A stretch of DNA of 64,000 bases from a bacterium. GTDB taxonomy: Bacteria; SZUA-79; Acidulodesulfobacterales; Acidulodesulfobacteraceae. The stretch lies in NCBI GenBank assembly GCA_021825865.1, contig JAKAFU010000003.1, forward strand, positions 1 through 64,000, written 5' to 3'. Below, piece by piece: positions 3,987 to 57,248 of this stretch. The notes below the pieces were generated by a model, which did no database searches, was not told the origin of the DNA, and saw nothing but the letters and a program-made list of their open reading frames with translations. Within the stretch, counting starts at the first letter, position 1. The number at the start of each line of letters is the position of its first letter. Made by a program: the position numbers and the translations under genes.

Positions 3987-5519
3987 TCATGGAATTATTT
4001 TCCAGCCCGGTTTTGCCTGAAGTTTATATAAAAATGAATAATGAAGACCTACTTTATACCAGCCGCCGGCTTTCCCCACTTCCGCTACGGAATAATCAAG
4101 ATTTCTTCCGTACTCCGGATATTCTTTTCTGTTTCTTGCCACAGGGTATACAGCTATTGTTCCGGCAAGTCCGTTAAAAAATCCTTCTTTCATTGAAGCG
4201 ACGCAAAGCCCGGGAGTATCTGCCATAGACGCATTATGCGAAGGTTCGTTGCCTTCGACCATATCCGCTATATTTAAAGCCGCAGCTTTACCCGATAATT
4301 CAGCCGTATATCCGGTTCTTGGAGGCGCAGGGCTTATTATCGTACCGTTAGGACTTTTGTTTGGTTTAGATAAAGGTCCGGGAGGGGCAAAGTTAATTCC
4401 TGCCGCAAAAATATTCTTATATAATTGAGTCTGATATGTTTTCGGCCAGTCCGGACCGTCTAATTCTTCGTAAGATTTTCCGTACGCAGCGTCAACTTTT
4501 ATGAATCCTGCAGGATTGCAAATCTTTTCTTTTATATCTTCCCCGTTTTCTCCTATCCATTTTATAGAATTTCCGGTAAAAGGAGGAAGCAGCATAGCGA
4601 AATTGCACTCAAGTTCCTTGAACTCGCCGTCTATATTTTCGGTATATATTTTTTTATCGTCTATTTTATGCACATGACTTCTTATCTGATATTTAATATC
4701 GCAATAGTTAAATACACCTTCGGCCATCATCTCCGAAGTATATATTAAGGATTCTTTCCTTACTTCAACGCCGTCCATACCGAAATCGCCAAGTTTGGGC
4801 TCGTTTGAAAGCCATGTTATTTCTGCCCTGTCCCTCAGTTTTCTTTCAACAAGGTCATAATGAATATTTGCGATATATTCAAAAGCGGCTCCTTGGCATG
4901 TCGCAGTTCCGTGTCCTGTCCCGACAAAAATTTTAGCCTTATCGCCCTTTTTCATTCTTTCAATTAATGCAAGATAGTTTTTTGCGGTATCCATTGCATG
5001 ATGCGGAGTGCAGATTGAATTATTATAACCGAATTCAGGATTTAAATTTTCGGTAGCTTCGAAATTTAATTTTGGACCTGTAGCCATAAGCAAAAAATCA
5101 TATTCTATTTTATTTTGATTTGTCGCGCCGATATCCGCAGAATTAATATTATTCGGCTTGTTTATATTTGCGTTTTCAGAGAGCATTTTGCCGCTATGCG
5201 TATTATTAAGGTTTTTGACATCGGAATCAATATCCGAAGGCTCAATGATGACGAAATTATTATCGGGATGAACTTCTTTTATAAACGCGTGTTTAAAGTT
5301 GATATTTACTTTATCGTATATTTTTTTTAAATTAAATTGAGTCTTCTCCGCTTTCATTTTATTAACCCCTACCCATACTAAAGAAGGCAGATAATTAAAT
5401 GTTGTGTTAGGCGTTATTACCGTTATTTCATGTGTCCCTTTATTTTTTAAAATATCATTAAGAATTAAGGCGCCGTAATGTCCGGCAAAGCCGCTTCCGG
5501 CAATTAAAATTTTAGCCAT
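3987..5519 (-). CDS. sqr: Sulfide:quinone oxidoreductase-family flavoprotein
   Basis: FAD-dependent membrane-associated enzyme expected to oxidise sulfide to polysulfide and pass electrons to quinone. The N-terminus has the FAD Rossmann motif GSGFAG (8-13). Three cysteines, Cys170 (NSICTPHH), Cys208 (GTATCQGAAFEY) and Cys439 (PGLCVASM), fall in the order and approximate spacing of the redox and flavin-linked cysteines of known SQRs. Residues 100-135 are an Asn/Ser-rich insert. A strong ribosome site AGGAGGAG lies just upstream (about 5529-5536 on the plus strand). The gene stands alone, divergent from an rRNA methyltransferase gene. It could instead be a related flavocytochrome c or NDH-2-like protein, but the cysteines favour SQR; I do not assign a subtype. 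Confidence 0.8.
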   Translation of the reverse strand: MAKILIAGSGFAGHYGALILNDILKNKGTHEITVITPNTTFNYLPSLVWVGVNKMKAEKTQFNLKKIYDKVNINFKHAFIKEVHPDNNFVIIEPSDIDSDVKNLNNTHSGKMLSENANINKPNNINSADIGATNQNKIEYDFLLMATGPKLNFEATENLNPEFGYNNSICTPHHAMDTAKNYLALIERMKKGDKAKIFVGTGHGTATCQGAAFEYIANIHYDLVERKLRDRAEITWLSNEPKLGDFGMDGVEVRKESLIYTSEMMAEGVFNYCDIKYQIRSHVHKIDDKKIYTENIDGEFKELECNFAMLLPPFTGNSIKWIGENGEDIKEKICNPAGFIKVDAAYGKSYEELDGPDWPKTYQTQLYKNIFAAGINFAPPGPLSKPNKSPNGTIISPAPPRTGYTAELSGKAAALNIADMVEGNEPSHNASMADTPGLCVASMKEGFFNGLAGTIAVYPVARNRKEYPEYGRNLDYSVAEVGKAGGWYKVGLHYSFLYKLQAKPGWKIIP

Positions 5520-5577
5520 TTTTATTATCTCCTCCTAAAAATTTAAATTTACACCTATTTTCGTAATTAATCAACAT

Positions 5578-5603
5578 TATAATTATAATATATTATAATT
5601 ATA
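5578..5603. repeat. 26-bp perfect palindrome in the sqr / methyltransferase divergent region
   Basis: Bases 5578-5603 read the same on both strands and consist only of A and T. Each arm begins with TATAAT, so the element could provide symmetrical -10 boxes or an operator for the divergent genes. The AT background makes a chance origin possible. Confidence 0.5.
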
Positions 5604-5766
5604 GCATTTTTATATATAAATATATATATAAAAATATATATATATTTATATTATTTGTATGACGGTTATGCAAATTATAATTTTGCCGCTTGGTTTTTTT
5701 AATAATTAAACTTATAATAAAGCTATAAAAGCTAACGAAAATAATAAAGCTAATGAAAAAAGACAA

Positions 5767-7299
5767 TTGAAAAAAGACAATAAAAAAAATGATGCGGCAG
5801 CGATACTTGAAATAGTCGGATTGGCATATAACGGCTATGGAGTAGGCAAAGAGCAGGATAAATGCGGCGACAAGATAACATTTGTCGAGTATGCCTGCCC
5901 GGGCGATACGGCGGAAGTCGCTATTTACGAAGAGCATAAGCGGTACGGTTTTGGAAAGATTAATAAAATTGTTCATCCTTCCTCTTCCCGGGTGAAACCT
6001 GTATGCCGGTACTTTACGCTATGCGGCGGATGCAATTATCTTAATATATCTTATGAAACAGAAGTTTTCTGGAAGAAAAAAATATTCGCAGATAATTTTG
6101 CAAAGACCGGATTGTCTATTAATAATAATAAGCTATATAACAATAAGCTGTATGAAACAATAGACATAATAAAATCTGAAAATGTTTTGCATTACAGACA
6201 AAAAATAAGTTTAAAAGTTCATTCGGACGAAGCCGTAGGATTATTCAAAAAAAATTCTCATTATGTCGTGGATGTCGATTACTGCTATCTTGCAAGCGGC
6301 AGGATAAATATAATGATAGAAACGCTCAGGAACTTTTTTCTTAAAAATAATAAAAGTCTGCTGAAAAAGATTAAATCAATAATTTTAACCGACGCGGAAG
6401 CGCAGAGCGCAATATTGCAATTAAAAGAAGAATTTTCTGAGAAAGAAAAAAAAATATTATCAAATCTGGCTCTAACTAAAATTTATATAGAATTCAACGG
6501 GAAAAAAGAAAAGATAGAAAAAAAGAAAGACACGCAGGAAATAAGAAAAACTATGGAAATAACAGAAATAACAGAAGATATTAACGATTATTTTACACTG
6601 TCCGGTATTAAATTTGCTTACGAATCTTTTTCGTTTATTCAGGTGAATAAAAAACAAAACGAAAATTTAATAAATCTTATAATAAATTATTTAGCCGATG
6701 AGCAAACTAAGCGCTGCGGCATACTAAACAAGGATAATTTTTTATTCGATAAAGCGCTTGACCTGTTTTGCGGCTATGGAAATTTAACATTCTTTGCCTT
6801 GCCGTTTGTTTCGCAAATGACGGGGGTAGAATCGAATATTTATTCTATAGAACTTGCAAATAAAAATATAATATTAAATAATGATTTAATTGAACGTATT
6901 GAACGTGAACGCTGCATACCGGATAAATATCAAAAGCATGGTTATAAAAAGCAGCCGTTTATCTCATTTGTCAATGAGAACGCTGAAAAATTTCTAATAA
7001 ATGCGGTGAAAAATAATTCAAGTTATGATTTAATAATGATAGACCCGCCGAGAGCGGGCATAAAAGGTTTGGTAGGTTATATAGCAGAGTTGAATCCTAA
7101 ATTGGTTATTTATCTTTCATGCGACCAAATGACATTATTGCGGGATTTAAAGGAATTTGTTCAGGAAGGATATTTTATTGACGGCATAAAACTGTTTGAT
7201 ATGTTTCCGCGTACTTATCATACTGAATCTTTAGTTTTTTTAAAAAATGAAAAAATAATCAACACGACTAAATCAAATAAATCAAATAAACCAAATTAA
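5767..7299 (+). CDS. rlmD: 23S rRNA (uracil-5-)-methyltransferase, RlmD/RumA type
   Basis: SAM-dependent enzyme that makes 5-methyluridine in 23S rRNA. It has an N-terminal TRAM-like domain (about 12-68), then the four cysteines of a [4Fe-4S] cluster, Cys80, Cys86, Cys89 and Cys173, spaced much as in E. coli RlmD. SAM-binding DLFCGYGNLT is at 332-341, DPPR at 426-429, the catalytic Cys452 is in YLSCDQ, and the general-base Glu is in TYHTES near 487. Linker inserts at 115-130 and 245-270 are Asn/Lys-rich, and the tail ends in a repeated Ser-Asn-Lys unit. The start chosen is TTG 5767; no in-frame ATG or clear ribosome site is seen nearby, so the start is uncertain. RlmC or TrmFO-independent TrmA paralogs are alternatives. 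Confidence 0.88.
   Translation: MKKDNKKNDAAAILEIVGLAYNGYGVGKEQDKCGDKITFVEYACPGDTAEVAIYEEHKRYGFGKINKIVHPSSSRVKPVCRYFTLCGGCNYLNISYETEVFWKKKIFADNFAKTGLSINNNKLYNNKLYETIDIIKSENVLHYRQKISLKVHSDEAVGLFKKNSHYVVDVDYCYLASGRINIMIETLRNFFLKNNKSLLKKIKSIILTDAEAQSAILQLKEEFSEKEKKILSNLALTKIYIEFNGKKEKIEKKKDTQEIRKTMEITEITEDINDYFTLSGIKFAYESFSFIQVNKKQNENLINLIINYLADEQTKRCGILNKDNFLFDKALDLFCGYGNLTFFALPFVSQMTGVESNIYSIELANKNIILNNDLIERIERERCIPDKYQKHGYKKQPFISFVNENAEKFLINAVKNNSSYDLIMIDPPRAGIKGLVGYIAELNPKLVIYLSCDQMTLLRDLKEFVQEGYFIDGIKLFDMFPRTYHTESLVFLKNEKIINTTKSNKSNKPN
7270..7296 (+). repeat. Three 9-bp tandem units at the rlmD 3' end
   Basis: The unit AAATCAAAT occurs at 7270-7278 and 7279-7287, then as AAACCAAAT at 7288-7296, directly before the TAA stop. 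It encodes the repeated Ser-Asn-Lys tail of the methyltransferase, and similar TAATCTAAT bases follow the stop. It looks like a microsatellite that has grown inside a tolerant C-terminus. Confidence 0.7.
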
Positions 7300-7382
7300 T
7301 CTAATCTAATCACCAATTTAATTATTCATAATACTTAAATTCATTGATTTAATATATTGAGTATTATGTCCGGAGGGTTTGC

Positions 7383-8306
7383 ATGAAAATATTAATAACA
7401 GGCGGGGCCGGGTTTATCGGGAGCAATGTAGCCGATATGCTTATTGCAAAAAAACATGACTTAGTCATAATAGACAATCTTTCAAGCGGTTTTGAATATA
7501 ATGTAAATAAAGAAGCTAAATTAATAAAAGCCGATATTACCGATTTTGATAAAATTGAAAAAATATTCAATGAAGAAAAACCTGAAATAATATATCACTT
7601 TGCAGCACAGATTGATGTCAGAAAATCAGTTTCCGACCCGATATTTGACGCTAAGACAAATATTATGGCGACGCTTAATCTGATTAAACTTTCTAATGAT
7701 TTTAAAATCAAAAAATTTATATTTTCTTCAACCGGCGGCGCTATTTACGGCGATACCGACGACAGACCTACCAAAGAAGAGCATTCGGAATGGCCGTTGT
7801 CTCCTTACGGTATTGCAAAGCTTGCGACCGATAAATTTCTAAACTTTTATTATGAAATATTCGGTTTAAAATATGTTTCGCTGCGCTACGGCAATGTGTA
7901 CGGTCCAAGGCAGAATCCATACGGCGAAGCAGGGGTTGTAGCTATATTTTTAAATAAGATGCTTAAGAACGAACAGCCGATTATTAACGGCGACGGTAAG
8001 CAGACAAGGGATTATACATATATAGACGATGTAGCAAAAGCAAATATCCTCGCACTTGAACATATGGATAAAATCGGCATATATAACGTAGGTACATCGA
8101 TAGAAATCAGCGTTAACGATTTATTTACAGAAATTAATAAAAATTTTGGCGGCAAGTTTAAAGAAATGCACGGTCCTGCTAAACTCGGAGAACAGAAAAC
8201 AAGCTGCTTAAATTATGAAAAAATAAAAAAAGATATGGGTTTTGAGCCGGAAATTAATTTTAGCGAAGGCATAAAAAAAACTTATGAGTGGTTTAAAAAC
8301 TTATAA
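7383..8306 (+). CDS. galE: NAD-dependent sugar epimerase (UDP-glucose 4-epimerase type)
   Basis: Extended short-chain dehydrogenase/reductase that most likely interconverts UDP-hexoses for cell-surface polysaccharide. Visible features: the NAD-binding TGGAGFIG at 6-13, FSSTGG (114-119), the catalytic Tyr142-x3-Lys146 in PYGIAK, and RYGNVYGPRQNPYGEAG downstream, as in GalE-like epimerases. The length of 307 residues fits. A ribosome site GGAGGG at 7372-7377 supports the ATG. The substrate cannot be fixed from sequence; GalE, WbpP-like or dTDP-sugar epimerases share these motifs. Confidence 0.85.
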   Translation: MKILITGGAGFIGSNVADMLIAKKHDLVIIDNLSSGFEYNVNKEAKLIKADITDFDKIEKIFNEEKPEIIYHFAAQIDVRKSVSDPIFDAKTNIMATLNLIKLSNDFKIKKFIFSSTGGAIYGDTDDRPTKEEHSEWPLSPYGIAKLATDKFLNFYYEIFGLKYVSLRYGNVYGPRQNPYGEAGVVAIFLNKMLKNEQPIINGDGKQTRDYTYIDDVAKANILALEHMDKIGIYNVGTSIEISVNDLFTEINKNFGGKFKEMHGPAKLGEQKTSCLNYEKIKKDMGFEPEINFSEGIKKTYEWFKNL

Positions 8307-8360
8307 TTTTATGGCATAAAAAAATATATACAAAATAATTAATATAAAAAAATATAAATT

Positions 8361-9596
8361 ATGACCAAAAATGAACGCAAAACAACATTTCTTTTGAGTT
8401 TATCGCATTTTTTCTGTCATGTTGCAATTCTGACGTTTCCGGCAATCTTGATTCTTTTGAAGGCGAAATTTCATGTAAATTTTGCAACGCTCGGTATAGT
8501 TGCAGGCGTGTACCTGTTCCTGTTCGGCGCAGGCTCTCTGCCAATCGGCTTTATCGCAGACAGGATGAATAAAAATTTACTGCTCAGGATTTATCTGCTT
8601 GGTATGTCGTTAAGCGCATTTTTGGCGGCTTTATCCGGAAATTTTTATATTTTCGCTATTTTTATTATATTAATGGGATTAGTCGGAAGTATTTATCATC
8701 CAGTTGGATTAAGCATTATGTCTTTTGTAAAAACGGATAAATTGAGAGGTTTTGCCATTCACGGGATAGCCGGAACTTTAGGCGTAGCTTTAAGCGCTGC
8801 ATTTGCGGGATTTTTAGGCTATTATTTCGGATATAATGCGCCTTATTTAATATTAGGTTTGATTTTTTTATCTATTTTTATTTATTCTTTTTTTGTCAAA
8901 ATTGAAAACAATAAAATAAACAATACAAAAATAAACAATACAAAAGCAGCTCATATAAAAGAAGACAAGATACAAAACGAAAACATTAAATCTTTTTTTA
9001 ATGACTTTTTTCACAGAAATATAGCATTTATTTTTATAGTTGAATTTTTAAACGGTTTCGTTTTTCAGGGAGTATTCTCTTTTCTGCCCGCTTATACGGG
9101 GATGAAGCTGAAAAATTTTTTATTTTTTCATAATCAGACCGTTGCGGCAGGCAGTTTTTATGTGACTATAGCGCTGCTGGTCGGCGTTTTGTTTCAATAT
9201 TCAAGCACCTATATCACAAAAAGATATAAGCCTCACAGCGTATTTTCCGTTTTAATATTAATATCCGGTCTATTTATATTAATATCCGGTTTTTCAGCGG
9301 GGTTTATTCTATTTTTTTCTATACTGCTATATTCCGCCTTCAGTTTCTCAATGAACCCTATCTCAAATCTTCTAATCAGCAGGAATGCAAAAGAATATTA
9401 CAGGTCGGCGGCTTACGGGATATTCTTTTTTGCCGGATTCGGCATAGGTTCTATTGCGGCGCCGATAGGGGGTTTTATAGCCAGCAGTTTTAAATTAAGC
9501 GATACGTTTATATTTTATGGAATTATAGCCATGATTTCTTTTACGATATCTGTATTTATAACTAATTATAACGTTGGCGATGCTGCTGCCGAATAA
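8361..9596 (+). CDS. MFS transporter, fosmidomycin-resistance (Fsr)-like
   Basis: Major facilitator with about twelve hydrophobic helices. It resembles the Fsr branch: LSHFFCHVAILTFPAIL at the start, the loop-2 motif PIGFIADRMNK (MFS motif A) and GSIYHPVGLSIMSF, which in Fsr proteins lies at the end of helix 4. The central cytoplasmic loop (about 185-215) is an Asn/Lys-rich repeat-like insert. It is probably a drug or metabolite exporter in the inner membrane. The stop is six bases before the antiporter start, so the two may be cotranscribed. The substrate is unknown. Confidence 0.82.
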   Translation: MTKNERKTTFLLSLSHFFCHVAILTFPAILILLKAKFHVNFATLGIVAGVYLFLFGAGSLPIGFIADRMNKNLLLRIYLLGMSLSAFLAALSGNFYIFAIFIILMGLVGSIYHPVGLSIMSFVKTDKLRGFAIHGIAGTLGVALSAAFAGFLGYYFGYNAPYLILGLIFLSIFIYSFFVKIENNKINNTKINNTKAAHIKEDKIQNENIKSFFNDFFHRNIAFIFIVEFLNGFVFQGVFSFLPAYTGMKLKNFLFFHNQTVAAGSFYVTIALLVGVLFQYSSTYITKRYKPHSVFSVLILISGLFILISGFSAGFILFFSILLYSAFSFSMNPISNLLISRNAKEYYRSAAYGIFFFAGFGIGSIAAPIGGFIASSFKLSDTFIFYGIIAMISFTISVFITNYNVGDAAAE

Positions 9597-9602
9597 AATA
9601 TT

Positions 9603-10922
9603 ATGCATGGAAGCCATTACATAGTTATTACGGCAATTGTTCTGCTTTCTATTGCCTCAATAGGCGGAATTTTGACTAACTACTTTAAAATTCCGTACAC
9701 CTCTATGCTTGTTATTATCGGTCTCATTGTAGGTATTTTTCATATTTTTCCCAATTTAAAAATAACCCCGACCTTGATTTATTATGTTTTTCTTCCGATT
9801 ATTATTTTTGAAGGGGCGGTTAATATAAAGATTGCTCCATTAATGTCAAACGCTGTTCCTATAGGCATATTGTCTATTTTCGGCACTATTATTTCAGCAG
9901 TTTTTATAGGTATAGTTTTTCATTTTATTCTGGATTTTCCGTTAAAACAGGCTTTAATATTCGGGGCTATAATTACCCCTACCGACCCTATTTCAATACT
10001 TGCATTATTAAAAAATAGCGCAAAAAAAAATTCCGGCGTCGGCGACTATAACGGCGATAACAACGACGGCATTAAGACGGTGCTTGAAGGGGAAAGTCTT
10101 TTTAACGACGGAATAAGTCTCGTGCTGTTTGAAGTTTTTTTAGGATTAAATTTTCATAATGCAGGATTGATTTTTTTAAAAGGCGATATTTTAAATATAT
10201 TTAAATATATTTTCGGAATAATCGGCATATCAGCGCTTAAGTTTTTATATGAAGCGCTTGGAGGTTCAATACTTGGTGTTGCACTTGGCTATGCAGTATC
10301 TTTTTTACTGTCTCTTACGGTAGATTATTTAACGGAAATAATGATATCCCTTCTGCTTGCTTATGTATCTTTGATATTCGCATATTATTTGCATGTTTCT
10401 TTTATAATGGCTATAATATTTAGCGGCATAGTATTGGCAAACTTCGGATTTGAGAAAAAAGTATCAAGTAAAGCGGTGGAAGTATTTCCCGTTATTATTG
10501 AATATTTAGCTTTTATTATTAATTCAGTCCTCTTTCTTATTATAGGGATAGAGATTAATTTGTTTAAAATTTTAAACTTATGGATTATTTCAATTTTCTT
10601 AATATTTCTTGTTATACTGTCAAGGTTTATAGCGGTGTACCTGTTTGCTCCGCTAAGCGATAAAATTGTTAATAAGCTTAGACATAAAATTAAGACATTT
10701 TCGCAGAGTATAAATTTAAATAAGCGATATAAAAGATTTCTTGTATTCGGAGGACTGAGGGGTGCATTGCCTATTGCTATGGCATTGTCGCTGCCTTTAG
10801 ATTTGCATATGAGGTCTAAAATAATAACATATGTTTTTATTTCAGTTCTCTTTTCATTAACCGTGCAGGCAATAATTTTCGATATTTTTTCGAAAAAAAA
10901 ATTAAAAAAGATTAAAGCGTAG
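9603..10922 (+). CDS. nhaP: Na+/H+ antiporter, CPA1 family (NhaP-like)
   Basis: Inner-membrane cation/proton exchanger for pH and Na+ homeostasis. Diagnostic CPA1 motifs are present: PIIIFEGAV in the third helix region (65-73), ITPTDPISILALLK with Thr-Asp-Pro at 127-129, and EGESLFNDG (162-170) with the ion-site Asn168-Asp169. A further motif, FGGLRGALPIAMALSLP, lies near the C-terminus, and the arginine in it is typical. The protein is 439 residues and lacks the long cytosolic tail seen in some members. It starts six bases after the MFS gene. Confidence 0.92.
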   Translation: MHGSHYIVITAIVLLSIASIGGILTNYFKIPYTSMLVIIGLIVGIFHIFPNLKITPTLIYYVFLPIIIFEGAVNIKIAPLMSNAVPIGILSIFGTIISAVFIGIVFHFILDFPLKQALIFGAIITPTDPISILALLKNSAKKNSGVGDYNGDNNDGIKTVLEGESLFNDGISLVLFEVFLGLNFHNAGLIFLKGDILNIFKYIFGIIGISALKFLYEALGGSILGVALGYAVSFLLSLTVDYLTEIMISLLLAYVSLIFAYYLHVSFIMAIIFSGIVLANFGFEKKVSSKAVEVFPVIIEYLAFIINSVLFLIIGIEINLFKILNLWIISIFLIFLVILSRFIAVYLFAPLSDKIVNKLRHKIKTFSQSINLNKRYKRFLVFGGLRGALPIAMALSLPLDLHMRSKIITYVFISVLFSLTVQAIIFDIFSKKKLKKIKA

Positions 10923-10970
10923 CTGACCCGATTACAGGCTAAATTACACAATTACAGGAATTAAATTTAG

Positions 10971-12956
10971 ATGGAAAAAATAAAAAAATATAAGACGGCC
11001 GGTCTCCTTTTAGACAGGCTGCATATTGTACAAAATACGCATGGTTTTATAGACGAACAATCCATAGAGCTTATTGCAGACGAATTAAATATGTCAAAAG
11101 CAGAAGTTTACGGCGCAGCAACATATTATAAGGATTTTATTGTACAGCGGAACGGCATCAAAAATAACAATATTAAAAGCAATGTTATTTTATCGGAAAA
11201 TAACCGCAAAGCGAGCGATAATAAACTTAGTGCTGCAAACGGCGATGTTTTTTCTAAAACAAAATTTGTTTTCAAGAGGGCAGGAAAAGTAAATCCGCTC
11301 TCATTAGACGATTATAAAAATCATCATGGATTTAAAGGGCTTGAAAATGCGTTATCTTTAATTAATCCAATCATATCTTCCGGCGGCAAGCCCTCCGTCA
11401 GCTCGGCTGTGAATACGGGAAGCTATAAAAATACGAAAATTATCATCGATATTTTAAAAAGCTCCGGCTTAAAAGGCAGGGGCGGCGCAGGTTTTCCGGT
11501 GGGCATAAAATGGGAAACCGTTCTTAATGCAAATACAGGCGGAATGAAAGAAGCAGAGTATAATAATACAAAATGCAATATAAATCTTAATCTTAATAAT
11601 ATAGATAATACAGAGAATAAAGCAAATAATGATAGAAAAGTTCATAATGATATAAATCATAACATTGCAGATATTAACGATAGTCTCTTAAATGAAAAAG
11701 AAACACAAGAGATATGGAACAGAGATGCGGAATACAGCGAAAAATACATAGTGTGCAACGGAGACGAGGGCGACGAAGGTGCGTTTGCCGACAGATTAAT
11801 TCTTGAGTATGACCCGTTCATGCTTATAGAAGGTATACTTATAGCTGCGGTCACAATTTGCGCAGAATACGGTTTTATTTACATCAGGTCAGATTACAAA
11901 AACGGTATTGAAAAATTGCAGAATGCTATAGATTTATGCTATAAGTCAAATGAGCTCGGTAAGAATATTTTAAATACCGGATGCAATTTTGATTTAAAAA
12001 TAATAGCAGGAGGCGGAAATTATGTTTGCGGCGAAGAGACGGCACTTTTGGAAAGCATTGAAAATAGAAGGGGCATGGTAAGAGTCCGCCCGCCTGTTCC
12101 GGCTGTTTCAGGTCTTTACGGTAAACCTACTATTTTAAATAATGTAACGACTTTTGCGTCGGTTGCGTATATTTTCGGCGAGCTTAATATTAATCTTGAT
12201 TTAAGCGGAGATTTAACTGGTACCGCAGATGAAGAAGATGGAAATCAAGAAGAAAATAAATATAAATATAAAGACAAAGAGAAAGACGATAAAGACATAA
12301 AGTTTAATGATAAGCAGGTTTTAATCAAAGATAAAGACATAAAGTTTAATGATAAGCCGGATTTGAAATATTTGGATAAATTAAATGTTCCGAAAGTACC
12401 TTTTCCGTTTCAGCTGTCTGGAGCCGTAAAATTTTCCGGTCTTTACGAATTAGACAACGATATATCATTGAAAGAATTGCTGTATGATTTCGGCGGAGGG
12501 CCTCTGCAGGATAATATGCAATTTAAAGCAGTGCAGATAGGAGGACCGCTTGGCGCCTTTTTCCCGTTGTACGGCGGTTATGCCGGCGAATTTTTAAATA
12601 TTAAACTTACATACGAAGATGTAGCGAAAAAGGCAGGAATGCTTGGGCATGGCGGCATAGTAGTCTATGCGGAAGATGCGGATATAAAGGATATTTTAAA
12701 TAAAACGTTAGATTTTTGCATTGAGGAATCGTGCGGAAAATGTGCGCCCTGCAGAATCGGTTCCGTCAGATTAAAAGAATTGTTTGAAAGAATATTCAAG
12801 TCGAATCGGAATGATAATATTAAAAACGATAATCTCAATGTAATTTATGAAATTCTTGAAACTATGAAATATTTATCTCTATGCGGATTGGGAAGCGGAA
12901 TAACTTTGCCGATAGAAAGTCTTTTGAAATATTTCGGCGATGAAATATTTATTTAA
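10971..12956 (+). CDS. fdhB: NAD-linked formate dehydrogenase beta subunit: NuoE-type helical domain fused to NuoF
   Basis: Diaphorase subunit that would carry electrons between formate dehydrogenase and NAD+. Residues 1-58 match the N-terminal helical bundle of NuoE (LIADELNMSKAEVYGAATYY). The [2Fe-2S] thioredoxin fold that normally follows is absent; no suitable cysteines occur before Cys202. From about 98 it is NuoF: GRGGAGFPVGIKW (169-181, FMN/NAD site), YIVCNGDEGDEGAF (259-272), GGGNYVCGEETALLES (347-362), an SLBB-like region, and the cluster ligands Cys588, Cys591, Cys594 and Cys638. Two low-complexity inserts occur, Asn-rich at 187-256 and Lys/Asp-rich at 418-470. The gene is 135 bases upstream of the alpha subunit. 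A hydrogenase diaphorase role is excluded by that neighbour. Confidence 0.88.
   Translation: MEKIKKYKTAGLLLDRLHIVQNTHGFIDEQSIELIADELNMSKAEVYGAATYYKDFIVQRNGIKNNNIKSNVILSENNRKASDNKLSAANGDVFSKTKFVFKRAGKVNPLSLDDYKNHHGFKGLENALSLINPIISSGGKPSVSSAVNTGSYKNTKIIIDILKSSGLKGRGGAGFPVGIKWETVLNANTGGMKEAEYNNTKCNINLNLNNIDNTENKANNDRKVHNDINHNIADINDSLLNEKETQEIWNRDAEYSEKYIVCNGDEGDEGAFADRLILEYDPFMLIEGILIAAVTICAEYGFIYIRSDYKNGIEKLQNAIDLCYKSNELGKNILNTGCNFDLKIIAGGGNYVCGEETALLESIENRRGMVRVRPPVPAVSGLYGKPTILNNVTTFASVAYIFGELNINLDLSGDLTGTADEEDGNQEENKYKYKDKEKDDKDIKFNDKQVLIKDKDIKFNDKPDLKYLDKLNVPKVPFPFQLSGAVKFSGLYELDNDISLKELLYDFGGGPLQDNMQFKAVQIGGPLGAFFPLYGGYAGEFLNIKLTYEDVAKKAGMLGHGGIVVYAEDADIKDILNKTLDFCIEESCGKCAPCRIGSVRLKELFERIFKSNRNDNIKNDNLNVIYEILETMKYLSLCGLGSGITLPIESLLKYFGDEIFI
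12288..12357 (+). repeat. In-frame 28-bp direct repeat inside fdhB
   Basis: An identical 28-base block occurs at 12288-12315 and 12330-12357, exactly 42 bases apart. The frame is kept, and residues 440-448 (DKDIKFNDK) are repeated at 454-462. It sits in the Lys/Asp-rich linker of the NuoF-like protein and looks like a recent slippage duplication. Confidence 0.9.
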
Positions 12957-13091
12957 TTTATTTATTCAATAAATATTTGTAAATATTTATAAATATTCGG
13001 CACGGTTATATATGTTTTATTTTATTTAACGGATTTAATTTTATTTCTTCTTAATTCAGGAAGTATATCAACTAAATAATATAGGCATGAT

Positions 13092-16000
13092 ATGATAACT
13101 ATAGAAATAGACGGCAATATAATTGATGCGGAAGAAGGCGCAATTCTTCTTGATGCCGCAAATAAAGCGGGAATTGCAATACCGTCGCTGTGCGCCTCAA
13201 AAAATCTTTTACCTTACGGGGCGTGCAGAATGTGCGCCGTTGAAGCGGAAGGTAAAAAAGGTTATATATACGCATGCTCCACGCATATTGTCGAAGGTAT
13301 GAAAATAAAGACTTATTCGGAAAAACTTTTTGCTTTAAAACGTACATTAATTGAACTTTATCTTTCCGACCACCCTAACGACTGCCTTACGTGTCCGCAG
13401 AATTTAGATTGCGAATTGCAGAAATGGGCTGCTTATTTCGGGGTTAGAAAAATAAGATATAGGGGCAAAAGTCATTTGCTGAGCGATATTGACGAATCAA
13501 ATCCTTATTTCAGATATGACCCTTCAAGATGTATTGTCTGCGCAAGGTGCGTAAGGGCCTGCAGCGAAATTCAGGGCAATTTTGCATTGACTATTGCAGG
13601 AAGAGGGTTCGATTCTATTATAAAATCTGTTAAAAGAAGTGCAAATAATCTAAATTTGCCGGCAATTAATAAAATTAATAAAGGTTTTGTTGTCGGCAAT
13701 AATAAAAATAATAAAATAAACAGTGCGGTAAAAAGCAATGTTGATACAAATTTCGGCGGTTATAATGAAAATGCAGATAAAGCAGCAGATAATTTTATAA
13801 ATTCCGAGTGTGTTTCTTGCGGAGCTTGTGTAAAAGAATGCCCCACAGCGGCATTGACGGAAAACAATTTATTCGAATCAGGAAAAGCTTTTTCGAAAAT
13901 AAAGACAACCTGCGCATATTGCGGAGTGGGATGTTCGTTTGAGGTTCAATATAAAGGCGATAATATAATAAGGATGCTCCCTGTTGACGACAGTCTGTCA
14001 AATTACGGTCATTCCTGCGTCAAGGGGCGTTTTGCATGGAGTTATGTTAAAAGCAAAGATAGACTGACGAAACCGCTTTTGAGAAATAATTTAAATGAAG
14101 AATTTAGAGAGGTTTCATGGGAAGAAGCTTATAGCCATATTGCCGAAAAATTTATAGAACTGCAGTATAAATACGGCATTAAATCAATTGGAGCTATAAG
14201 TTCTTCAAGATGTACAAACGAAGAAAATTATTTAATGCAAAAAATGGTCAGAACCGTTTTTAAAAATAATAATATCGATACTTGCGCAAGGGTCTGTCAT
14301 CAGCCTACCGGATATGCGCTTGGCGTCGCTTTCGGCGCAGGCGCAGGGACTCAGGATTTAAGTTCTATGTTTAGTTCAGATTTAATTATGCTCATAGGAG
14401 CTAATCCCACGGAAGCTCATCCTGTAGTCGGCGCATTTATAAGAAAAATGGCGAGAAAAGGAGCCGATTTAATTGTTATAGACCCGCGCATAACGGAAGC
14501 TGCCAGATCTGCGAACGTGCAGGCAAAATTTCATTTAAGACCGAAACCGGGAACAAATGTAGCTCTTTTAAATGCTTTTGCTTACACGATAATTAAAGAA
14601 GGACTTTTAAAACATGATTTTATTAAAGATAGATGCAATATTGAAAGTTTTAATTTATGGGAGAAATTTATTTTAAACGATGATAATTCTCCTGAAGCGG
14701 CGGAAGTTATAACGGAAGTTCCCGCTAATGAAATTAAAAAGGCGGCGATGCTGTACGCAAGAGCTAAAAATGCCTCAATATTTTACGGACTCGGCGTAAC
14801 GGAACATTTGCAGGGTTCAAGCGGCGTACTTGCGATAGCCAATCTTGCAATGCTGACGGGAAATATCGGCAGAAAGGGCGTCGGGGTTAGTCCTTTAAGA
14901 GGGCAAAACAATGTACAGGGAGCTGCCGATATGGGAGCAGAACCTGCTACCCTGCCAGGCTATCGTCATATATCGGATGACAGAGCCAGAGGACTATTTG
15001 AAAAAGAATGGAAAGTAAAATTGGAGCGCGAACCAGGCATGAGGCTTCCCGATATGCTCAGGAATGCTTTGGCCGGAAGATTTAAGGGGCTTTATATCTT
15101 TGGCGAAGATATTGTTCAGACCGACCCTGATTCTAATCGTATAATAGAATCTTTAAAGTCTATGGATTTAGTTATAGTGCACGATTTATTTAAGACCGTC
15201 ACTTCCGGATATGCTCATGTGATACTTCCCGGTTCATCATTTCTTGAAAAAGACGGAACGTTCACAAACTGGGAAAGAAGAATCCAGAGAGTCAGAAAGG
15301 TGCTTGAACCTGCTGCAGGAAAACAGGACTGGCAGATTATTGAAGATTTAAGCCGGTATTTGACAGAGTATGGCGGCAAATACAAATATGAATCGGGTAA
15401 TTTGGCGGCTGCTTTTATAAAATCTGCTGCAAAATCTGCGAATGCTGCGGCAGAAGAAGATAACAGGCAGACGCCGCCGCCTGCAGCCGGCAATAAGAGC
15501 TTCGGTAATCATAATGCAGATTTAAATTATACGCATCCTTCTGAAGTTATGGATGAAATAGCAAGACTTACGCCGTCTTTTGCATTGGTGAGTTATGAAA
15601 AATTAGATAATAAGCCTTATTCTATTCAATGGCCCTGCAATGAAAATGCCCCGAACGGAACCGATATTTTACATAAAGACGCTTTTATCGGACAGAAAGG
15701 AAGATTTGTCATTACATCTTTTGCGGGGTCTAAAGACCGCACCGACAGGCAGTATCCTTTTATTCTTACAACAGTCAGGAATTTGTTTCAGTATAATTCT
15801 GCAAACAATACGAGGCGCACCGAAAACAATTTATGGTATTGTGAAGATTATTTAGAGATAAGTAAAGAAGATGCGGAAACATTAAATATAGAAAACGGCG
15901 AAACTGTTTTAATTGAAAGCAGGAAAGGAAAAATTAATTTGACGGCAAAAATAAGCGGCAGAGTGATGAAAGGCGTGGTTGCAACGACATTTCATTTCCC

Positions 16001-16319
16001 TGAACTAAAAACCAATGTATTAACCAGCGATTACTCGGACTGGTCAACTGAAACTCCTGAATATAAAGTAACGGCGGTTAATATTAAAAAAATTGAAATC
16101 GCCAAAAGCGCTAAAAAAGAACCAAGTGTATCCGCAGACGCAGATTATAGGCAAACTGAAACATACGATGAAGAAGCTGCAAGAATGTTTAATGATCTGA
16201 CTAAAACTTTCGAAGCTTACGACCGTGAAACGGCGGATAGAGAAATAGCTGCACACATAAAAAAATACTGGGAAAAAGAGCTAGTCGAAAGACTTATTAA
16301 ATTAAAATTGCTAAATTAA
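13092..16319 (+). CDS. fdhA: Molybdenum/tungsten formate dehydrogenase alpha subunit (FdsA-like), probable fused FdsD tail
   Basis: Catalytic subunit of a cytosolic NAD-dependent formate dehydrogenase; there is no Tat signal. Cluster ligands run in order: [2Fe-2S] Cys34, Cys45, Cys48, Cys62; His94, Cys98, Cys101, Cys107; ferredoxin sets Cys147/150/153/157 and Cys240/243/246/250; and the molybdopterin-proximal Cys274, Cys277, Cys281, Cys309. The active site is Cys402-His403, with plain Cys and not selenocysteine. NNVQGAADMG is typical of Fdh alpha subunits. An Asn-rich insert of about 55 residues (180-237) splits the ferredoxin sets. Residues 1032-1075 resemble the separate delta subunit FdsD (spaced Phe, then IAAHIKKYWEKEL). 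The gene follows fdhB. No maturation gene is in the window. Confidence 0.93.
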   Translation: MITIEIDGNIIDAEEGAILLDAANKAGIAIPSLCASKNLLPYGACRMCAVEAEGKKGYIYACSTHIVEGMKIKTYSEKLFALKRTLIELYLSDHPNDCLTCPQNLDCELQKWAAYFGVRKIRYRGKSHLLSDIDESNPYFRYDPSRCIVCARCVRACSEIQGNFALTIAGRGFDSIIKSVKRSANNLNLPAINKINKGFVVGNNKNNKINSAVKSNVDTNFGGYNENADKAADNFINSECVSCGACVKECPTAALTENNLFESGKAFSKIKTTCAYCGVGCSFEVQYKGDNIIRMLPVDDSLSNYGHSCVKGRFAWSYVKSKDRLTKPLLRNNLNEEFREVSWEEAYSHIAEKFIELQYKYGIKSIGAISSSRCTNEENYLMQKMVRTVFKNNNIDTCARVCHQPTGYALGVAFGAGAGTQDLSSMFSSDLIMLIGANPTEAHPVVGAFIRKMARKGADLIVIDPRITEAARSANVQAKFHLRPKPGTNVALLNAFAYTIIKEGLLKHDFIKDRCNIESFNLWEKFILNDDNSPEAAEVITEVPANEIKKAAMLYARAKNASIFYGLGVTEHLQGSSGVLAIANLAMLTGNIGRKGVGVSPLRGQNNVQGAADMGAEPATLPGYRHISDDRARGLFEKEWKVKLEREPGMRLPDMLRNALAGRFKGLYIFGEDIVQTDPDSNRIIESLKSMDLVIVHDLFKTVTSGYAHVILPGSSFLEKDGTFTNWERRIQRVRKVLEPAAGKQDWQIIEDLSRYLTEYGGKYKYESGNLAAAFIKSAAKSANAAAEEDNRQTPPPAAGNKSFGNHNADLNYTHPSEVMDEIARLTPSFALVSYEKLDNKPYSIQWPCNENAPNGTDILHKDAFIGQKGRFVITSFAGSKDRTDRQYPFILTTVRNLFQYNSANNTRRTENNLWYCEDYLEISKEDAETLNIENGETVLIESRKGKINLTAKISGRVMKGVVATTFHFPELKTNVLTSDYSDWSTETPEYKVTAVNIKKIEIAKSAKKEPSVSADADYRQTETYDEEAARMFNDLTKTFEAYDRETADREIAAHIKKYWEKELVERLIKLKLLN

Positions 16320-16350
16320 AAATAATTTAAATAATTTCTTTATTTTCAAA

Positions 16351-16373
16351 AAATTAGCGCCAGTCTCTAATTT
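16351..16373. terminator. Possible bidirectional terminator hairpin, weak
   Basis: AAATTAG (16351-16357) pairs with CTAATTT (16367-16373) around a 9-base loop, between the convergent fdhA and exported-protein genes. The stem is AT-rich and there is no clean T-run, so it is only a candidate. Confidence 0.25.
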
Positions 16374-16389
16374 CTGCCTAATTTCTAAT

Positions 16390-16875
16390 TTAATAAAATA
16401 CAGGTCTTATCGTTTTTGCTATTAATTCGCCCGCCGTATTTTTAGATGCCGTTATGTTCACGGTCTGCCCTTTTTTGTAGTCGGAACATGAGGCGGTCTT
16501 TAAATTAACCCCGACGCCGCCGTAGCATACCGTTGAACTGTTTATTTCAAACAGCAGGGTGGTTCTGCCTGATAATTTTAATGCCGTATTATTTACAGCA
16601 ATGATTGTTCCGGCATAAAAAAAAGTATTTTTATGCAATAATGAAAGCGGACCGCCTGTATGAGGCGCAGCGGCTTCAGAGTTAGGCAAAAAAAATGAAG
16701 ATACCGCCGCAAAAAGAAACACGAGAAGTATTAAGAATACGGATGCAGGTTTAATTTTATTTAATATAAAATATTTAATGCCGGATTTATTATTATTAAA
16801 ATTTTTTGTGTTTCCCATATTATTGCATCTGTCATTTTTATTGTTTTGAATATTTTTTATTTTTATTATACGCAT
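16390..16875 (-). CDS. Small exported protein downstream of pilY1, function unknown
   Basis: A protein of 161 residues with a long Asn/Lys-rich N-region, a hydrophobic segment at about 43-62 and a possible signal cleavage after SEAAA. The mature part is a short beta-rich domain (GTIIAVNNTALKLSGRTTLLFEI, shown here only as a pattern of alternating strands) with two Cys that could form a disulfide. The layout resembles DUF5666-like or OB-fold exported proteins, a weak resemblance by eye. A ribosome site AAGGAG lies upstream of the ATG; Met20 is an alternative start. It follows the pilus tip genes on the same strand and may belong to that cluster. Confidence 0.65.
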   Translation of the reverse strand: MRIIKIKNIQNNKNDRCNNMGNTKNFNNNKSGIKYFILNKIKPASVFLILLVFLFAAVSSFFLPNSEAAAPHTGGPLSLLHKNTFFYAGTIIAVNNTALKLSGRTTLLFEINSSTVCYGGVGVNLKTASCSDYKKGQTVNITASKNTAGELIAKTIRPVFY

Positions 16876-17046
16876 TGAAACATCTCCTTACTGGTTTAAT
16901 TTAACAATGAATTAATCATATACATTTATAGCAGCCATATTTATATATCATAAAACGACGATTCGCTTTAGCAGAACATACATAATATATCTGCATAACT
17001 TTATATTAGTATATAATTTTTATATATAGGTCATATATTTTATTTT

Positions 17047-20000
17047 TTAAGGTTCTTCAAACCATGAAGTAGGAGTCACCTTAGACGGCAGAGACGGTAT
17101 CTGCTGTCTAAAAACTTTGCCGGTCGATGTAGTTACGCCAAGATAATTATTAGCTATAGTAGGCGCAGATGCTACGCCTGAACCCACAACCGTTGATTGC
17201 GCAGCGCCGCTGGACGCAGATGCATTATTCACAATCGAAATAGTTCCGGAAGTTGAAACCAATATTGTACCCCCGCCGTTAAGATAGCTTAAAGCGTACA
17301 GCCTTGACGTTCCATAACCGCAGGCGTCCTGAACGGACGACGGAGTAAATGTCGTGAAATAAACTACGCCGTCGTAAACCAGCGGCGCCGATGTCACTTT
17401 TTCGCCCTGAGGTAACGTTATATACCATCCGTCCGCCGCTTGAACATCTGATAAATTTGCAGTAGAACCGCTCACGCCGGTCTGATTGTATAGATCCGAT
17501 TCATTGATTGGACCGCTTGAAGGACAAGTTAAGGGACCGCCTATTTGTGAAGTATTAATTGCTATAAATTCATTATTTCTTGATGTGTTTACTTCATTTA
17601 AATCTTCTCTGTTGCCGGTGCCGAAAAAAATCCAGAAGTTGCCTAACGTATCTGTTGCGGTTGCCGGCGAAAAGAAAATATTCAACGGGTCTGAGGTTGA
17701 AGCATCGGAATCAAAAACCCTGCAGGCGTCCCAGTTTGAAGTTCCGTTTGCGGTATAAGGAGCAGAGCCGTACGGTATATTGACCGACCATAACTGTCCG
17801 CCTAAATCACCGGCATAAAAACCCTCGGTTCTAAAATTCTGGCTTAATACCGGCGTGATTGAAGAAGGTATAGAATATTTCATATTTGAATCATTTGACG
17901 AACTAAATTCCCATAAAATCTGCTTGTCAACATAGTTAGGAGCGGCAGACGTTCCGGTGTTTACGGGATTCGGTTCTGCATACAGCGCATAAAGCGCGTT
18001 TCCGGTGCTGTTGTTTGACGAATACCCTCCGCCTATAAAAGCGGTGTAGGTTTTTATATATTGCGGAGGCAACAGCGGACTTGCGGGGTCTGGATTATTG
18101 CCGCAAGCCCCCGCTTCTCCGTTTGTTTTTGAATAATCCGGATTTGGCAGGCATACATAAGATATATACGGTTTTGACCAGGTATTACCCATTGAACTGC
18201 CGGTAATATTCCATAACGGATCGGGGTAAGACGAACTTGAAGGGTTGGTGACTCCCAATGCATAATAATATGTTCCGCCGTTTCTTTCGCCGCCTATTAA
18301 AATTGAATGCCAGCTGTTCTGCAGGCTGCTCTGGTTTATAGAATATTCCGAGCTGCTGACAGGATTAATTTCTGGAGATTCAACGGTTTCCGCTCCTCCG
18401 CTCACGTAATCCGGAAAAATATTATTAAAAAATACGTCCGACGCATCCGGCGTAGAATCGACGAATTCCGGAAAATTCAGCGCCGTTCCCGCCCCTATCG
18501 AACTGTCGTACCATGCGGTTACTTTTGGAAGCAGATTGGGCGGAATATAGCCAAAAATTTCAGCTCCTGTTCCGTAGTTGTAAGAATTTGTCGTACTGTC
18601 CCATGTTCCTGCGTTAAAGGCATGAAGCATACCGTCGTTAGCGCCGACGTAAAGTACCTCGTTCCTTGGTTTTGTGACAGTGTAATACTGTTTAAAAGTT
18701 TGATAAGAATGGCTTGAATACGGAAAAGGCGGCGGACCGACAAGAACAGGGTTTGAATGAAATATTGCCCCGAGTTTCCAATTATCCGTCGAAGAATCCG
18801 GGTCTAGAACAAAATTTAAAATGTCTGACGCGCATGCCGATGCCGATGTTGAACCTGGACAGATTGTACCGTAGTAATCGGGGCTTGTACTGTCGGAGCT
18901 TATATTAAGCATACTGTCTAAATTGCTGTTGCCGCTGCTTGTACTTACAGGATTTATGTCAATGGTTTGCTGTTCTCCCGTGGAAGGATTTAAATAAGAC
19001 GTTAATACATCTCTTGAAGAAGCAGACTCTGACTGAAGGAGACCTCCTGCTCCGTTTCCGTCATCCCAGTAAGAATCGCTGGTGATTATTTGTCCGTTTG
19101 CTCCTACAGCCGGACCGTAAGGACCGACAAGCTCGTCTTGGGCATTTAAACCGAAAAGATAAACATTTCCTTCGCCCCAAAGCGGCTGGTTTAAAGATTT
19201 GAAATTTGTGTAATATACATACAGTTGATTAGATGTTTCATTTACGACGGGAGACGTAAAAGAAGCGGTTTGTTTTTCAATCTGATTAAATATTGTTGTC
19301 AGAGAAGACTGCAGCTCGTTTAAGTTGTATGCAAGGTAAACAGTGCCGGACAAAGTAAGAGGATTTGCCGGAGAAGCTAATGAATTTGATAAAAGAATTT
19401 CGTCCGTGTTTGGATAAACCGCCGTAATAGTTGCACATTGAAATCCGTCTGCATAAGAACCGCTGTCGTTATTATTGGTTTCGCAATCTGAAGACTGCCA
19501 GCCGTTATCGGAGATTGTATCTCCTATCTGCACGCCGTTAGTTGTTCCAAACAGCGACGGAGGAATCTGCAGGAGCGTTTCGGCAGTATTTTCCACCGTA
19601 GCGGAAATATTAGGTATCCCATTAAGATATACGGGATTATTTATTGTGCCCGGATTAATTCCGACGCCTGCGTTTGCGACCTCCTGAATATATGTTCCGC
19701 TGCCTACGTTATTTGCATAACCGAATCCGATAATAAAAAGTTCTATAGGATACGACGGGTCTAAATTGTATAAGTCATAAACCTCCTGAGGAGTTTCGGA
19801 AGACGGAATACCGTTTGGAGCGTTTCCGCCGGACTGACATAAATTTCCGTTCGTATTGTCTGTGTAAATATTAAGAGGGGAAGACGGAACGTCGAGCGGC
19901 GACCAACGACAGCCGGAATTGGCTTCGCCGTCCGTTATAATTATAGAAAAATTTCTTCTGCATGCTTTTGCGGAATCCGCCTGCAGCGAATTTTGAAAAT

Positions 20001-56513: not shown

Positions 56514-57248
56514 ATGAAAATTTTTGAAAGCAGAAATGGCTTAGCGCATCGATTTATCGATAACAATAGCAATAACATTAGCAATAATATTGATAACTAT
56601 AATAGCATTAACATCAATAACAATACCGATAATAGCGGGCGGCAATGTCTGCTAAAACCGGCATACCGTGAACCGTCATGGTCACGTATACTAAGCATAT
56701 TAAAAGTTTATGCAGCGCCAGCCGTACTGTATTTGCTGCCGTTAAGTATTTTTTTGTGCGCAAATTATACATATGCTGCCGGTATTGCCGTTCCGGTTAA
56801 AAATGATGTAAAAACGTCAAAAACTAAAATTCATATCACATCAAATTCTCTTGTGGTAAACAATAAAAAAAAAATTGCTATTTTTTCAGGCAAAGTGATA
56901 GCCGTTAAAAAAAACCTTAAAATATTTTCGCACATTCTTAAGGTTTTCTATAACAAAAGAAATAAAATTAAACAGCTGATAGCCATTGGCAATGTCCATA
57001 TTATTAAAGGCAGCGATAATATCACGGGCAATAAAGCGGTATTTAATAATACCTCCAAAACAGTGATTATAACCGGACATCCGTACGCCTGGTCAGGAAA
57101 AAACAAGATTACCGGAAAAATAATAGAAATGAACCTTGCTACCGGAATTTCAAAAATATTGTCAGGGCGGGGACAGCGGGTAAATGCGGTTATTTATTCA
57201 AAAAAATCTTTAATTATTAAAAAAAATCAGTCGAAGTCTATTAAATAA
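56514..57248 (+). CDS. lptA: LPS transport protein LptA, with long N-terminal extension
   Basis: Periplasmic bridge protein that carries LPS. The OstA-like repeats run from about 105 (IHITSNSLVVNNKKKIAIFSG, broken as strands; GNVHIIKGSDNITGNKAVFN; ITGKIIEMNLATG). The first 60 residues are an Asn-rich, Ser/Ile-rich tract with no family counterpart, followed by a hydrophobic signal (about 62-84) and cleavage near YAA-G. This unusually long n-region may begin after the true start, but no later in-frame ATG is well placed. Length 244 versus about 185 for E. coli. Confidence 0.85.
   Translation: MKIFESRNGLAHRFIDNNSNNISNNIDNYNSININNNTDNSGRQCLLKPAYREPSWSRILSILKVYAAPAVLYLLPLSIFLCANYTYAAGIAVPVKNDVKTSKTKIHITSNSLVVNNKKKIAIFSGKVIAVKKNLKIFSHILKVFYNKRNKIKQLIAIGNVHIIKGSDNITGNKAVFNNTSKTVIITGHPYAWSGKNKITGKIIEMNLATGISKILSGRGQRVNAVIYSKKSLIIKKNQSKSIK

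Follow-up and report, generated by a model that had tools for sequence, protein, structure and literature searches.

In complex I and its relatives, an N1a-type cluster flanks the FMN on the side away from the electron chain, and what it does there is a matter of dispute. Among formate dehydrogenases, the FdsABG(D) enzymes (R. capsulatus, 6tg9/6tga; C. necator FdsBG, 6vw7) carry the corresponding [2Fe-2S] thioredoxin-like domain in FdsG. FdsG of the R. capsulatus enzyme is described as contacting FdsB over 1754 Å2 and FdsA over 490 Å2, and FdsB is described there as having a Cys-less thioredoxin-like N-domain (PMC7171172). Beta subunits in which NuoE and NuoF are fused are already known from MeFDH1 (Fdh1AB of Methylobacterium extorquens, 7e5z/7vw6), which is reported to consist of two subunits with fused FdsG- and FdsB-like parts and no FdsB-type N-domain, its equivalent of the N1a-type cluster lying outside the electron relay at a distance of >15 Å (PMC10869683). 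In HoxF of the NAD+-reducing [NiFe]-hydrogenase of R. eutropha, a further NuoE/NuoF-like (Nqo1/Nqo2-like) fusion, the N1a cluster is reported as missing; the protein retains a NuoE-like part that aligns with Nqo2 minus most of the cysteines, and it is a working diaphorase within a module that cycles NAD+ and NADH (PMC3189943). The bifurcating HydABC and BfuABC enzymes share a homologous NuoF core.

We analyzed a window of 64,000 nucleotides, that is, positions 1 to 64,000 of contig JAKAFU010000003.1 from a bacterium of an uncultured genus of the Acidulodesulfobacteraceae. An open frame at positions 10971–12956 of the forward strand, fdhB, encodes a beta (diaphorase) subunit of 661 amino acids in which part of an FdsG/NuoE-type protein is fused to NuoF. 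The Pfam profile PF01257 matched residues 6–62 only, corresponding to profile positions 7–64 of 145 (E 7.2e-10), and was followed by PF01512 and PF10589. Similarly, the NCBIfam model for formate dehydrogenase subunit gamma matched residues 8–62 only and NuoF models matched the rest, all below their curated cut-offs. The helical bundle thus delimited (residues 1–58, positions 10971–11144, forward strand) was conserved in all seven genomes of the genus and aligned with the FdsG of relatives. The NuoF part (residues 99–661, positions 11265–12953, forward strand) contained the FMN/NAD motifs, and its best solved-structure match was FdsB of 6vw7. An AlphaFold2 prediction made from three near-identical sequences gave no usable structure (pLDDT 29.2).

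A sequence-only reading of this DNA had described the bundle as joined straight to NuoF, with no [2Fe-2S] thioredoxin domain and no cysteines to form one. The bundle at residues 1–58, its fusion to NuoF and the lack of the domain were all borne out, whereas the word "straight" was not, as an Asn-rich linker of about 40 residues (residues ~59–98, positions 11145–11264, forward strand) stands in place of the thioredoxin-like domain. The linker was cysteine-free and had no Pfam match. The cysteines of FdhB are at residues 202, 262, 297, 323, 338, 353, 583, 588, 591, 594 and 638; that is, none precedes residue 202, and neither Pfam nor the cysteine map revealed a thioredoxin-like [2Fe-2S] domain or any further ferredoxin-type Pfam match. 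The ligand set of the N3-type [4Fe-4S] cluster was present (C588, C591, C594 and C638), and the last cysteine was 23 residues from the C-terminus, as compared with 23 and 25 residues in the FdsB proteins of two relatives with separate genes, G009 and G025. The Cys-less thioredoxin-like N-domain of ordinary FdsB was also missing when FdhB was compared with G009, G025 and the R. capsulatus enzyme, residues 1–98 being accounted for by bundle and linker.

Linker length depended on the species, and the linker spanned 79–97 residues in the congeners G002, G004 and G006. Two variable inserts were found within NuoF on the same strand: an Asn-rich insert at residues ~191–255 (positions 11541–11735), which differed among congeners and was missing from G006, and a charged, Asn-containing insert at residues ~404–476 (positions 12180–12398), which also differed among congeners. 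Asn-rich low-complexity sequence occurred in 5 of the 49 open reading frames tested in the window (3987–5519 on the reverse strand, 10971–12956, 13092–16319, 16390–16875 on the reverse strand, and 56514–57248). The beta subunits from G002, G004 and G006 had much longer stretches of this kind, and the subunits of other families that were compared had none.

The gene adjoining fdhB downstream, fdhA (positions 13092–16319, forward strand), encodes an FdsA-type alpha (catalytic) subunit. FdhA scored 824 bits against TIGR01591, the Fdh-alpha equivalog model, with a cut-off of 666, and Pfam and NCBIfam identified NuoG-like N-terminal cluster domains together with the bis-MGD catalytic domain of formate dehydrogenase. 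The RGQNNVQG and CHQP motifs were present in FdhA and common to all eleven family members compared. Its C-terminal tail (residues 1031–1070) resembled FdsD, with a PF11390 score of 27.9 bits against a cut-off of 27; the same tail was above the cut-off in G002, G009 and G025 and below it in G018 and G262, and the Pfam search gave no such match for Microvirga or Methylobacterium. The region directly upstream of fdhB (positions 8361–10922) holds genes for an MFS transporter and a Na+/H+ antiporter-type protein. This pair likewise lies upstream in 5 of the 6 congeners, as judged by the start of the sequence; the stretch in G004 has unread bases there.

The alpha subunit type and the NuoF core, with its FMN/NAD domain and single [4Fe-4S] ligand set, are those of FdsABG(D). 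In contrast to FdsABG(D), both the [2Fe-2S] domain of FdsG and the Cys-less N-domain of FdsB are lost, and two genes stand in place of three, with the FdsD-like part fused to alpha. MeFDH1 is also a two-subunit fusion enzyme; however, its beta subunit retains the thioredoxin-like [2Fe-2S] domain that FdhB lacks. In our trees MeFDH1 formed a distant lineage, and FdhB grouped with Fds-type beta subunits and not with Fdh1B, which speaks against descent with the Methylobacterium Fdh1 subunits. Unlike HoxF, FdhB lacks the whole fold, and its partner is a formate dehydrogenase. The locus most likely encodes a lineage-specific, reduced Fds-type enzyme that would work like FdsABG while missing two of its defining features.

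We surveyed the family through 30 genomes, which were all those returned by a phylum search. PF01257 was matched in 18 of them and had no match in the other 12. The matches comprised helical-only fusions in seven genomes, which are all seven of the genus, separate full-length FdsG in two (G009 and G025) and full fusions in nine. The gene order in G009 and G025 was fdsG, fdsB, fdsA, and FdsB began with the Cys-less N-domain. The full FdsG–FdsB fusions, found for example in genus g6 (G018 and G011), shared the beta–alpha order and the position of the bundle N-terminal to NuoF; those of g6 differed in that they retain the entire domain, including its four cysteines, and show no Asn-rich linker by the measure used. 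The cysteines of SESC and CFG[HL]C were present in 9/9 full fusions, with one protein translated per genome, and all four cysteines of the domain are kept in these nine genomes. Within the genus, the PF01257 match ended at profile position 61–67 in 6 of 7 genomes, and in G003 it continued weakly to position 110 via the linker. A search of genome contigs with the single protein FdhB matched only two congeners.

We consider it likely that the product is an NAD+-dependent Mo/W formate dehydrogenase of alpha–beta composition and Fds lineage, from which the off-path N1a-type domain has gone while the bundle was retained as a brace. By homology, formate would give its electrons to bis-MGD; from there they would follow the Fe-S clusters of alpha to the N3-type [4Fe-4S] cluster of beta, and then reach NAD+, which we infer to be the acceptor, by way of FMN. 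The lost N1a-type cluster would have lain off this main path. Reduction of NAD+ should survive loss of the cluster, because the equivalent cluster of MeFDH1 is off the relay and HoxF works without N1a; the enzyme therefore probably still makes NADH from formate. The retained bundle would act as a structural brace.

With respect to origin, helical-only and full fusions may have arisen separately, a history that most of the trees favour. In the ancestor of the genus, a neighbouring fdsG–fdsB pair would have lost the end of fdsG, encoding the thioredoxin-like [2Fe-2S] domain; the same event would have removed the start of fdsB, encoding the Cys-less thioredoxin-like domain, and the remainders would have fused. 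Judging from the layout in G009, a deletion of ~0.7 kb would convert separate genes to the helical-only fusion. Alternatively, a full fdsG–fdsB fusion may have formed first, and an internal deletion may later have cost the genus the thioredoxin-like domain, with the same resulting function. The first NuoF tree, built from whole proteins, is consistent with that order of events in that it unites the helical-only and full fusions (91/93), and the FdsB-type N-domain is missing from both fusion types. However, the refined trees placed the separate G025 genes inside such a group, together with the full fusions (NuoF core 95/94; FdhA 99/97), and the first FdhA tree rejected a clade of helical-only and full fusions (p-AU 3.5e-5). 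In addition, the bundle was closer to the separate FdsG of G009 (57% identity over 47 amino acids) than to the eleven full-fusion rows (33–41%); its identity to FdsG of G025 was 46%. We therefore regard an internal deletion in a full fusion as improbable. In the refined FdhA tree, the alpha subunits of the helical-only genomes grouped with that of G009 (91/94). A tree from 55 helical columns, which was poorly resolved, joined the FdsG of G009 to that of G025 and to the full fusions (84/82), apart from the helical-only proteins.

We also compared the linker with the cluster loop of FdsG. At residues ~72–80 (positions ~11184–11210), the four closest species have the pattern V-x-LSENN(H/R)K, and FdsG of G009 has VCLSESCH. 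In these four species, between 0 and 17 of 5000 shuffles reached the score of the V-x-LSENN(H/R) loop, a motif that was picked post hoc; in the other three species there was no signal (1873–2829 of 5000 shuffles as high). When the linker was compared without bias with the thioredoxin-like domains of relatives, the loop pairing was best in 0 of 14 tests, and 43–860 of 1000 shuffles scored as high. That the linker loop may be a remnant of the cluster loop without its cysteines is thus a post hoc, unproven lead.

Under separate origins as under internal deletion, the cluster would be missing from the enzyme itself; it could instead be restored by a [2Fe-2S] thioredoxin-like protein encoded elsewhere that docks in trans. 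PF01257 gave one match in the source genome, FdhB itself, and one in each of six further species of the genus, and no second NuoE/FdsG-type domain was found in any of these seven genomes. The earlier suggestion that a second electron path to FMN is missing is to that extent supported: FMN lacks its neighbouring N1a-like cluster, and the search proposed there for a separate nuoE or fdsG gene found none in these genomes. At 90.5% completeness, the source genome could harbour an unseen gene, and a solitary domain may have diverged beyond the reach of PF01257. However, completeness ranges from 90 to 99% across the seven genomes, with the best at 98–99%, and the full domains of relatives scored strongly in the same search (E 1.5e-34 to 2.1e-29), compared with E 1.5e-12 to 7.5e-10 for the helical-only proteins. 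Docking in trans is therefore very unlikely in our view.

Next, we considered gene decay or mis-assembly, with a non-functional enzyme as the outcome. Rates of substitution were compared between seven congener pairs. The dN/dS values were 0.05–0.34 for the bundle, 0.09–0.27 for the FMN domain and 0.04–0.12 for the C-terminal part of NuoF; those for the start of NuoF were 0.12–0.63 and those for the linker 0.11–0.44, with one pair undefined. The first insert gave 0.69–1.61 in four pairs and the second 0.07–0.69 in seven pairs. Purifying selection thus acts on the retained bundle, which is constrained and does not resemble a relic.

FdhD is usually needed for formate dehydrogenase activity. PF02634, which represents FdhD, had no match in any of the ten family genomes searched (G000–G006, G009, G018 and G025), all of which have this type of formate dehydrogenase, and 8 of 14 control genomes had a match. 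Therefore, activity is uncertain for these enzymes, including those of relatives with a complete FdsG. This absence from 10/10 genomes fits decay, as does the interruption of NuoF as well by Asn-rich inserts. However, FdhD is just as absent from the relatives with complete FdsG, the cofactor motifs are intact, the bundle and the FMN domain have the low dN/dS values given above, and the architecture is identical in 7/7 genomes of the genus, which also indicates that it is not an assembly accident. We find a decayed or mis-assembled gene hard to credit.

The sequence-only reading had further proposed that the missing cluster bears on whether the complex can bifurcate electrons. This was not supported, since the related formate dehydrogenase of R. 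capsulatus, with its FdsG cluster present, is already named as non-bifurcating, and the non-bifurcating relatives, the R. capsulatus enzyme included, are described in that report as having a BfuB homologue without the B2–B5 clusters of all true bifurcators (PMC9304861). FdhB had no B2–B5 cluster domains or cysteines by Pfam and the cysteine map, and the PF01257 search of the genus gave no BfuC/HydC-type C1 domain; the B2–B5 and HydC/BfuC-type clusters of the bifurcating relatives are thus absent here. Bifurcation is unlikely because the B2–B5 clusters are absent, and we infer that the enzyme does not carry it out; a novel mode of bifurcation, with NAD+ and ferredoxin as the two acceptors, found no support in our analysis and can be dismissed as having next to no probability.

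Returning to the preferred reading, in which an NAD+-dependent enzyme has dropped the N1a-type domain, the genus would provide a natural test of the purpose of the side cluster. The N1a-type cluster is reported to have no effect on flavin ROS production and to serve probably in assembly or stability (PMC3898324); another proposal has it governing a redox switch of the NADH site (PMC6560083). Its loss here may alter control. The whole N1a domain would have been removed by a fixed natural deletion, and the close relatives in which it persists, separate or fused, form a ready-made comparison set; the loss is less surprising given that HoxF is already without the N1a cluster. More tentatively, the lineage may have removed, along with the whole N1a domain, the redox gating that has been proposed to control nucleotide release; what is left would be a minimal bundle-plus-NuoF module in which the cluster is dispensable and the affinity for NAD(H) or the formate/CO2 bias is shifted. 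We think this possible but rather unlikely. If true, the N1a cluster would be dispensable for assembly and turnover in the superfamily, the bundle alone would do the structural work, and loss of the cluster would shift NAD(H) affinity or formate/CO2 bias.

The sequence-only reading had also considered that many close relatives might share the fusion and have known chemistry. Six relatives do share it; however, no known chemistry was found for them in the literature, and the titles and abstracts of open-licence literature yielded no description of a helical-only NuoE fused to NuoF. We surveyed its occurrence more widely, on a scale that does not establish uniqueness. Of 386 genomes, 289 had a match to a helical-domain profile. 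Among the best-ranked of these matches, five fused frames of >400 amino acids came from outside the family, and all five had a Cys-bearing domain. The helical profile gave no frame of >203 amino acids in 25 further genomes, and a profile of virtual helical-only fusions, which was not run on the genus as a positive control, found none in 9 genomes. One row, from G389, started inside the helical part; by eye, it was an RnfC-like protein with an RnfD-like neighbour and was rejected.

A tie between loss of the domain and loss of aerobic respiration was not supported. Full-length heme-copper oxidase was found in 0 of the 7 helical-only genomes, which had partial matches or none, and it was also missing from 5 of the 9 genomes with full four-Cys fusions (G011, G017, G021, G023 and G028), three of which are only 65–86% complete. 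Cytochrome bd was present in 6 of the 7 helical-only genomes.

The same genome also has a cluster of complex I genes outside the window (locus L074; contig C20, positions 5092–18581), which contains no NuoE and no ordinary NuoF. Between NuoD and NuoG lies a 636-amino-acid protein that combines PF10589 (NuoF-type [4Fe-4S]), Fer4_20 and a GltD/Nfn-like pyridine-nucleotide oxidoreductase part. Its sole match in the genome was the NuoF of the formate dehydrogenase.
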